A stretch of DNA of 62,693 bases from Desulfobulbaceae bacterium (GTDB lineage: Bacteria > Desulfobacterota > Desulfobulbia > Desulfobulbales > Desulfurivibrionaceae). The notes below the pieces were generated by a model. The model worked only from the letters and a program-made list of their open reading frames with translations, did no database searches and was not told the DNA's origin. A program made the translations under genes and the position numbers. Below, in pieces: positions 43,605-48,188 of this stretch; within the stretch, counting starts at the first letter, position 1, and every line of letters begins with the position of its first letter. Location: the NCBI GenBank assembly GCA_004332195.1, contig SJBG01000011.1, positions 1 through 62,693 of the forward strand. The letters are read 5' to 3'.

Positions 43605-44465
43605 ATGCAAGATATCCAGGGTCAAGCGGATCACCGCCAGATCAATATCAAAAAAGTCGGGATCAAAAACATCTCTTATCCCATCACCGTGCGAGACCGC
43701 GCCCGGCGCATCCAACGCACCGTAGCCACGGTCAATATGTACGTTAATTTGCCCCACCACTTCAAGGGCACCCATATGAGTCGCTTTGTCGAAATTCTCA
43801 ACCGGTTTCACGGCGAAATCAATCTTGAGAGTGTGCACCACATTCTTCGGAAGATGAAGGAACACCTGCAAGCCCAGGCGGCCCACCTGGAAATAGAGTT
43901 CCCTTACTTCGTTGCCGAAAGCGTCGGCCACGACTCGGCGCAATTCGGTCCAACCCAGATATCATCAGCGAAAGACGGACCTCCCAAAATCGTCGGTATC
44001 GGAGTTTGTGAATATCATTGCCGAATGCACGGCTCTCTGACTGACAAGGATGATCTGACTTTAGATGTCCGCATTCCCATCGCGCCTCCCCGGATCTCGG
44101 ACCATTGTCCTGGTCTGCCCCGCTCGCTGGGTCATTGGGGAACCGCCAATATTTCTCTGCGGTTCCGCCGTTTCGTCTGGATTGAGGAAATTATCGAGTT
44201 GGCGGCGAGAGTAACCCGACACGACCTCTGCTGGCCTTCTCCGCAAGCGATAACCGGTCACAGCTCCGAGCGCAAACAAAACCAACACCTCAGAAAACCT
44301 TCCCTGACGGTGGAAAGCATGGCCCGGGCCTTGGGCCAAGAGCTGCGAGCGCACCCGGATATTCGCTGGTTTTCGGTGCGAGTGGAAAACCTGGCGACGG
44401 GATTTGCCACCTTCGCCACGGTCAACGGGGCGAGCAATAACACTAGAGATGACGTAAAACCATGA
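43605..44465 (+). CDS. FolE2-like protein (GTP cyclohydrolase IB fold) lacking catalytic motifs
   Basis: The N-terminal half is clearly FolE2: QDIQGQADHRQINIKKVG, then VNMYVNLPHHFKGTHMSRFVEILN and HLEIEFPYFVAES. Later there are FVWIEEIIEL and a IRWFSVRVENL segment. But the stretch aligning with the catalytic TSLCPCSKEIS-YGAHNQRS region of the family reads APPRISDHCPGLPRSLGHWG, the same length without the Cys-Pro-Cys or the GAHNQR His. The C-terminal NHSAYA-type histidines are also absent. It may be a non-catalytic paralogue or may have new chemistry. Length (286) is normal and no frameshift explains it. Its last four bases overlap the glyS start, so they are coupled. Confidence 0.75.
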   Translation: MQDIQGQADHRQINIKKVGIKNISYPITVRDRARRIQRTVATVNMYVNLPHHFKGTHMSRFVEILNRFHGEINLESVHHILRKMKEHLQAQAAHLEIEFPYFVAESVGHDSAQFGPTQISSAKDGPPKIVGIGVCEYHCRMHGSLTDKDDLTLDVRIPIAPPRISDHCPGLPRSLGHWGTANISLRFRRFVWIEEIIELAARVTRHDLCWPSPQAITGHSSERKQNQHLRKPSLTVESMARALGQELRAHPDIRWFSVRVENLATGFATFATVNGASNNTRDDVKP

Positions 44466-46585: not shown

Positions 46586-46949
46586 AAAAGCGCGGATCTT
46601 CGGGGATGATTTTTTCGGAGATGATTTTTATGTTGACAGCAGTTTACAAATTCTTTACTGTCAGAGCTAAAATTAAAATTTAGTTAAAATTTACATCAGC
46701 AGCAAAAGATATTAACCAAACGCAAACACGAACACAAACACAAACACAAACACAAACACAAACACAAACAAAACTGTAAAATATCCCACAAATCATAAAG
46801 AAAAGATCTCCCATTTTTTGGTCAGATCCCCAGAATAAACTAGGCAGTTTGCGCACCCCAACCTTATGACCGACTTACGCGGAGTAGGCCGACCCGGTCC
46901 GGAGCATCCCGCTCCCCACAATCAACCAAGATGAAAAGGAGGCAACAAG
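46586..46949. other. intergenic region before the selenoprotein gene
   Basis: This is a 360-base AT-rich gap. It contains the hexanucleotide tandem repeat at 46720-46771. AAAGGAGG at about 46936-46943 is the ribosome site of the next gene. No gene or clear promoter is seen otherwise. Confidence 0.6.
46720..46771. repeat. hexanucleotide tandem repeat (AACACA)n
   Basis: About eight units of a CAAACA-type hexamer, the first slightly imperfect, in a non-coding gap. Such runs can vary in length by slippage. A similar but irregular CA-rich stretch occurs near 34380-34420. Confidence 0.85.
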
Positions 46950-48188
46950 ATGCGAAAACTGAAGATGCATCTCGCCCACTTGGTGGCGCTGATCCTGACT
47001 GGCTTCATGCTGGCGGCATGTAGCGCTGGTGTCGGCGGGCAGGCGCAGGCCACCGATACCGCGCTGCGGACCCCGGCGGCTACGGCTGGACCCAAAAACG
47101 TGCCCCAAGATCCGCAGCTGCGGATCACCACGGCCGAAATCAAAGAACTTTTTGCCGAGGTCTACGGCGGCAAACCTTTGACCAAGCCAACCCTGAAGAG
47201 GAATACCAGTTTTCTGCTGGTGGATACCCGGCCCCTGCGGCGCTTCGAGGAAGGCCATGTGCCCGGTGCCATCCACATGCCCCCCGGCCAGGTAGCGGCC
47301 AACATTGACAAATTGCCCCGTGATCGGATGATTATCTTCTATTGCGGCGGACTTCACTGTCCCTTAAGCTCGCAGGCCGCCAAGATCGCCCAAGGGCTCG
47401 GAGTGACCAACATCAGAGTCTGGTATGAAGGTGATCCCGGCTGGAAGGCCGCCGGCGGTTATCTGATTACTACCACCGCCTATCTCGAGAAGATGGTGCT
47501 GACCCCCGCTGCCGACCAGAAATTCCTGTTGATCGACACCCGACCAATGAAGGTGCATCGCCGATCATTCATCCCCGGCTCTCTCTTGGTTGACTGGGCC
47601 CAGTGGGAAACCGCCCAAGGCTTACTGCCCCGTGATCTCGACACTCGTCTGGTTTTTTATTGCGGGGGGCTTGGCTGACCCTATAGCCATAGAGCCGCTA
47701 GTTTAGCGGCCAAAGAACTTGGTTACAAATGGGTTGCGGTCTACAGCGTCGGCCAACCGGCATGGAAAAAAGCAGGTTTGCCGCTTTGGGGTAACGAACC
47801 CAGCGGGGTGGTAGCCGCCCCGGTAGAGCTGCCAATGGCCCCCGGCGGGCTGCCGCGCAGGGTCAGTATCTCTGATTTCATCATGCTGGTGAACGCATCT
47901 CCCAGAGAAGTGGCGATTCTCGATGTTCGCAGCGCTGACAAATTTGCTGCCGGGCACATTCCCGGGGCGATCAACCTGCCCGACGATCAGTTCCACGCCA
48001 ACTACGATGAGATGATCAAGAAGGTTCCCACCGGCGTTCGGGTGCTCATCCACTGTACGGCCGGCCCCCGGGCTGAAGGGGTTTATCATGCCATCGCCAC
48101 CCGGGGTGGCTACGATAATCCTAAAGGCATTCAGTATCTTGACGCCGCCATTTTTTTTAACCCGGATGGCACCTTCGAAATCTTATAA
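46950..48188 (+). CDS. selenocysteine-containing triple-rhodanese lipoprotein
   Basis: The frame is open from 46950 to 48188 except for one TGA at 47676-47678, giving 412 residues with Sec at position 243. It has a signal peptide with lipobox (MLAAC, Cys about 24) and three rhodanese-like domains. Domain 1 has the loop FYCGGLHCPLS, and domain 2 has FYCGGLG-Sec-PYS. The two align residue by residue and go on in parallel (SQAAKIAQGLG / HRAASLAAKELG; DPGWKAAGG / QPAWKKAGL), so Sec matches a Cys. Domain 3 has HCTAGPRA. A SECIS-like hairpin follows the TGA. AGGAGG precedes the ATG. It should be an envelope protein, perhaps in sulfur or selenium transfer or thiol redox. Without recoding it would end after domain 2's fourth strand. 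Confidence 0.85.
47694..47710 (+). promoter_or_regulatory. bacterial SECIS-like hairpin
   Basis: GCCGCTA-GTT-TAGCGGC is a perfect 7-bp stem with a three-base loop that starts with G. The loop begins 22 bases after the TGA. This fits the bacterial SECIS pattern (small stem-loop within the coding region, apical loop about 16-37 bases after UGA, a G among the first two loop bases). It would bind SelB with Sec-tRNA. Confidence 0.8.

Follow-up and report, generated by a model that had tools for sequence, protein, structure and literature searches.

An in-frame TGA that probably encodes selenocysteine in an exported triple-rhodanese lipoprotein of Desulfurivibrio

Does the TGA in the middle of a long rhodanese gene of Desulfurivibrio end translation, or does it encode an amino acid? 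The gene lies in a 62,693-nucleotide stretch of DNA (the window, by which we mean the whole stretch analysed) from a 1.66 Mb genome in 21 contigs, and its features are listed in Table 1. An earlier note on this DNA had described a frame open except for a single TGA, and indeed that codon, number 243 of 412, is the only in-frame stop ahead of the TAA at 48186-48188. We conclude that TGA 243 most probably encodes selenocysteine (Sec), with a probability of roughly 85%, in a protein of three rhodanese domains that is predicted to be exported and lipid-anchored. Insertion of Sec at UGA 243 is strongly supported by the sequence comparisons described below.

Table 1. Positions in the window of the selenoprotein gene, its domains and its putative signals.
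Feature	Position	Strand	Basis
Selenoprotein gene encoding a predicted triple-rhodanese lipoprotein of 412 residues; Sec at TGA, end at TAA	46950..48188	+	sequence, Pfam, orthologues
Putative Sec-UGA, codon 243	47676..47678	+	sequence, orthologues
Shine-Dalgarno AAGGAGG, 7 nt 5' of ATG	46936..46942	+	sequence
Predicted signal peptide, lipobox LAAC at its end (Cys24)	46950..47021	+	sequence; orthologue boxes
Rhodanese domain 1, residues about 86-168	47205..47453	+	PF00581
Domain-1 loop FYCGGLHCPLS, residues 130-140, Cys132/Cys137	47337..47369	+	sequence
Rhodanese domain 2, residues about 187-279, interrupted by TGA	47508..47786	+	PF00581
Domain-2 loop FYCGGLG-Sec-PYS, residues 236-246, Cys238/Sec243	47655..47687	+	sequence, alignment
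Candidate bacterial SECIS apical hairpin, 7-bp stem, GTT loop	47694..47710	+	folding, covariation
Rhodanese domain 3, residues about 305-391, loop HCTAGPRA, Cys369	47862..48122	+	PF00581
Terminator-like hairpin (9 pairs, one G-U) and six T, 61 bp past TAA	48250..48278	+	sequence

The predicted protein is a multi-domain rhodanese. The earlier note had counted two of them and had aligned the TGA with a cysteine of the preceding domain. The alignment holds, with U243 opposite C137, but the count was one short: Pfam model PF00581 matches three stretches (122.7 bits against a gathering cut-off of 22.2), the third downstream of the TGA. Cys132, Cys238 and Cys369 are invariant across 13 aligned homologues. 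The precursor has a calculated mass of 44.7 kDa, close to the 44 kDa estimated before, and the form that lacks the signal peptide one of 42.1 kDa (lipid excluded). The lipoboxes of the orthologues read LTAC or similar in their sequences. An AlphaFold2 model (alignment of 13 sequences, mean pLDDT 79.8) has a rhodanese-like alternation of strands and helices in all three domains and places residues 238-244 in the loop that joins strand 233-237 to helix 245-255. Matches in the PDB, by sequence and by fold, are generic rhodaneses. Foldseek returned chiefly the multi-domain rhodaneses 1yt8, EanB and YnjE, with low whole-chain TM-scores that probably reflect domain orientations left unfixed in the model, and single-domain rhodaneses aligned well. 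At the terminator-like hairpin, a scan for intrinsic terminators listed the opposite-strand version alone.

The genome encodes a selenocysteine system. The earlier note had tied its reading to the sel genes, and all of them are present: selA, selB, selD and selC, the last a tRNA-Sec with a UCA anticodon, all exceed their family cut-offs (contigs C13, C16, C15 and C21, respectively). SelD is itself a selenoprotein, with an in-frame TGA in its active site, GUAAKLGP. We rule out genome-wide reassignment of TGA, for example to Trp or Gly, for which we found no support, on the grounds that the tRNA-Sec is standard with a UCA anticodon and that TGA terminates 20 of the 52 non-overlapping window ORFs of at least 120 amino acids (a mechanical count); the aligned residue of homologues, moreover, is Cys.

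Comparison with relatives bears most directly on the codon. We found orthologues of the gene in four genomes of the genus Desulfurivibrio. Codon 243 is TGA in three of them and TGT (Cys) in the fourth (G004), and the TGA-bearing orthologues are 62-63% identical to the window protein. The residue aligned with the in-frame UGA is thus Cys or Sec in homologues, the pattern by which bacterial selenoproteins are recognized and one of the checks proposed in the earlier note. Against orthologue L003, pN/pS is 0.37 (0.235/0.636) before the TGA and 0.38 (0.218/0.578) after it, and other orthologue pairs behave similarly on either side. Because the two ratios match closely, purifying selection appears to be as strong past the TGA as ahead of it. 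The Cys orthologue in G004 also indicates that Sec is not obligatory at this site.

The hairpin downstream of the TGA, GCCGCTA-GTT-TAGCGGC, had been reported in the earlier note as a 7-bp stem with a G-first loop 22 nt after the TGA, and it is there as described. The published model of the bacterial SECIS (bSECIS) has a stem of 4-16 bp and a loop of 3-9 nt with a G among its first two positions, 16-37 nt from the UGA [PMC13188914]. With 7 bp and a 3-nt loop that has G first and starts 22 nt past the TGA, the window hairpin fits that model. We reject the hairpin as sole proof of Sec, since an equal or better one arose in 1640 of 20000 synonymous-codon shuffles (8%); one also occurs at 16 of 388 in-frame positions of the gene. 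The hairpin is convincing because it is conserved among orthologues. In the stem alignment of the four Sec-bearing genes, every one of the 28 cells is paired and two pairs are compensatory, even though the codons around the loop specify different residues (Ser-Leu, Arg-Met, Arg-Arg). No such hairpin was found after the TGT of the Cys orthologue in G004, nor in L080, a Cys-bearing relative of the Sec-bearing Pelovirga gene L079. Sec sites and Cys sites have different hairpin scores overall (Mann-Whitney p about 1e-6), with overlapping distributions and among related sequences, so that the p value is indicative only. The two instances in which Cys stands at the Sec site and the hairpin is lost (L002/L060 in G004 and L080/L070 in G426) can serve as natural controls.

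These comparisons weigh on two readings in which the TGA is a stop. If only one genome were available, an in-frame TGA would most simply be a true stop in a broken gene, owing to pseudogenization or to an error in sequencing. However, four genomes sequenced independently of one another, among them a complete single contig, share the TGA at this codon, selection is equal on either side of it, and the hairpin is conserved with compensatory changes. We consider a broken gene ruled out by the conservation in four genomes and the selection. Alternatively, the stop could yield a truncated protein of one and a half domains, with read-through that is minor or regulated by selenium. Such a product would keep domain 1 intact, and decoding of UGA in bacteria is generally incomplete. 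Yet purifying selection acts on domains 2 and 3 as it does on domain 1, and the Cys orthologue yields the full protein, which makes truncation improbable as the main outcome. We therefore favor full-length translation with Sec at position 243.

Sec-bearing triple rhodaneses of this family are of two types that differ in where Sec lies. We searched 395 genomes of the phylum and 277 genomes of the class that contains the Pelovirga-type genomes, and the triple-rhodanese family is scarce, with members in 12 and 25 of them, respectively, at E <= 1e-60. The window gene and its orthologues (paralogue A, whose Sec is in the domain-2 loop and whose domain-1 loop has Cys instead) form a clade with tree support of 100/100, the only clade found with Sec in domain 2. 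The sister clade (paralogue B) includes the Desulfurivibrio genes L052, L053 and L054 and Pelovirga-type genes, whose Sec lies in domain 1 and whose domain-2 loop has Cys. The other ingroup relatives examined have Cys in both loops, a few with one loop off the standard motif. In more distant relatives of the same order, domain 1 again carries Sec or Cys, but the domain-2 loop is gone. Parsimony on these few sequences suggests that the ancestor was Cys/Cys, that Sec was gained separately in domain 2 (A) and in domain 1 (B), and that each gain reverted at least once, in G004 for A and in L080 for B. In keeping with separate origins, the SECIS of A lies at 22 nt with a 3-nt loop and that of B at 20 nt with a GGTC loop. 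The window gene is placed next to the Cys gene of G004 with modest support (87/75), so a second gain of Sec inside clade A is possible. Paralogue B was not found in the window genome, beside the polysulfide reductase (psr) operon or elsewhere, and A is the sole long triple rhodanese of the family there.

What might the protein do? The start of the loop in a rhodanese domain is the site of persulfide formation, a position held here by Cys238, and Sec243 lies five residues further on in the same loop (C-x4-U). We favor a role in transfer of sulfane sulfur (polysulfide) in the envelope through the Cys238/Sec243 pair. UGA 243 would be decoded by SelB with the downstream SECIS hairpin. Cys238 would then take sulfane sulfur from polysulfide or elemental sulfur, and the adjacent selenol would resolve the persulfide or pass it on through a Cys-S-Se-Sec intermediate. 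Domain 1 could do the same job with its Cys/Cys pair, and the protein may feed envelope sulfur to polysulfide reductase or to sulfur import. We hold the chemistry and the physiological partner to be somewhat likely; our literature search found no characterized enzyme of the triple-rhodanese subfamily.

The main rival to sulfur transfer is a thiol or metalloid redox function, in which the same selenoprotein would act in redox or repair, as a thiol oxidoreductase or in reduction of metalloids such as selenite. The C-x4-U arrangement looks like a redox pair, and the selenoproteins of known function are mostly redox enzymes [PMC9312934]. In addition, metalloid reduction has been suggested for the ext cluster of Geobacter, which includes a rhodanese lipoprotein; reduction of selenite and tellurite is impaired when its porin ExtI is lost [PMC5877670]. 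Nevertheless, the protein has three rhodanese domains, its paralogue B adjoins polysulfide reductase, and organisms of the genus live by sulfur disproportionation [PMC12142623]. We regard a redox role as possible but rather unlikely, and continue to prefer sulfur transfer.

The connection of gene A to polysulfide reductase rests on paralogue B, because A itself lies outside any conserved operon. glyS is upstream of A in the window and ligA is in the context of A in two relatives; neither is found there in G004, and no conserved operon partners were found in the window or in the relatives' neighborhoods. Paralogue B, on the other hand, is directly 3' of psrABC and a gene for a TorD-like chaperone in AMeS2 and in a Desulfurivibrio MAG, follows psrABC in Pelovirga, and is beside psrC, psrB and psrA in D. 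alkaliphilus. This position agrees with the operon descriptions in the relevant passages of PMC12142623 and PMC5516251. There, the Psr operon of D. dismutans AMeS2 contains a lipoprotein with three rhodanese domains (RS06465) and is strongly up-regulated during sulfur disproportionation [PMC12142623], and the rhodanese/polysulfide-reductase operon of D. alkaliphilus is highly expressed [PMC5516251]. RS06465, from the same genus as the window gene, is probably paralogue B (L053/L062), about 49% identical to the window protein, the locus-tag match to L062 being drawn from the operon. Like A, this paralogue has one Sec (TGA) loop and one Cys loop; unlike A, it has the Sec and Cys domains swapped, adjoins psrABC, and has a SECIS at 20 nt with GGTC. 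The passages on these operons in the two reports do not mention selenium in the protein. The psr operon is present in the window genome, with psrA 71% identical. At that locus (L091, contig C15, 40000-52000) psrABC and the TorD-like gene are kept, without the rhodanese seen after psrC in three Desulfurivibrio relatives.

Rhodanese selenoproteins as a kind have been established computationally [PMC13188914, PMC9312934, PMC5029168]. The earlier note overstated their rarity, as a 2026 review distinguishes at least five forms [PMC13188914] and many exported rhodaneses of the same order have TGA in this loop. Its suggestion that the protein was new holds only for the arrangement. What appears to be new is Cys in domain 1 with Sec in domain 2 and the reciprocal A/B pair: in an incomplete literature search we found no triple rhodanese with Sec in its middle domain and no two paralogues whose Sec positions are swapped between domains. 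That search found no paper that combines selenocysteine, rhodanese and polysulfide reductase and, judged by title, nothing related on selenoproteins and sulfur disproportionation. Selenoprotein status is likewise absent from the passages that report highly expressed periplasmic rhodaneses of Desulfurivibrio [PMC12142623, PMC5516251].

Several known systems resemble the window protein in part. The rhodanese-like form 1 (UxxS, WP_010941598) [PMC13188914] shares PF00581 and the U-x-x-S motif, which the window protein has as U-P-Y-S, a likeness at the level of the motif. The loop of TsoB (NF045694), FYUAGLxUVRS, has its first Sec aligned with C238 and its second with U243, so the two positions also occur together in an established selenoprotein family. 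In TsoB both Sec lie within a single rhodanese domain, with DsbD and thioredoxin-like parts after it, whereas the window protein has one Sec, three rhodanese domains, CxxxxU rather than UxxxxU, and no DsbD part; its score of 99 bits against a cut-off of 805 places it outside that family. TsoB genes with two TGA each (L115-L118) occur in several genomes of the same order; none was found in the genus Desulfurivibrio. ExtH of Geobacter (GSU2940), a rhodanese lipoprotein that is likewise exported and comparable in size (49 kDa), is described without Sec [PMC5877670, PMC6148476]. No ext genes were recognized near the window gene among the ORFs or by Pfam on four neighbors. NF041203 (form 3, CxU) comprises small exported rhodaneses, often with TGA, that have one domain and not three, and the window protein falls outside it (48.4 bits against a cut-off of 115). 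A small exported rhodanese of the window genome (L051, contig C12, 19095-19343) has an in-frame TGA in a similar loop, CRNLSUGLT, and a hairpin, GGCTGC-GGTC-GCAGCC, 20 nt past it. Its relatives in three genomes (G001-G003) have TGA too, and it scores 62 bits against the NF041203 cut-off of 115.

With this gene, a genus that disproportionates sulfur gains a well-supported selenoprotein. If our reading is correct, some Desulfurivibrio rhodaneses may carry truncated annotations. Together with its Cys/Cys relatives, the A/B pair offers a natural experiment on the conditions under which sulfur transfer uses Sec in place of Cys. We speculate, tentatively, that paired A and B with reciprocal Sec could be selenium-dependent sulfur relays to polysulfide reductase and that disproportionation in these organisms would need selenium, a requirement not recognized before, in which case selenium supply could limit sulfur disproportionation.

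Two other features of the window were recorded. The ORF at 43605-44465 is FolE2-like, and its first 105 residues match FolE2 well. Its second half has no model match and lacks the expected CPCS motif, and neither of the other two frames restores it. The hexamer CAAACA is repeated 9.8 times at 46717-46774, in the intergenic region upstream of the selenoprotein gene.
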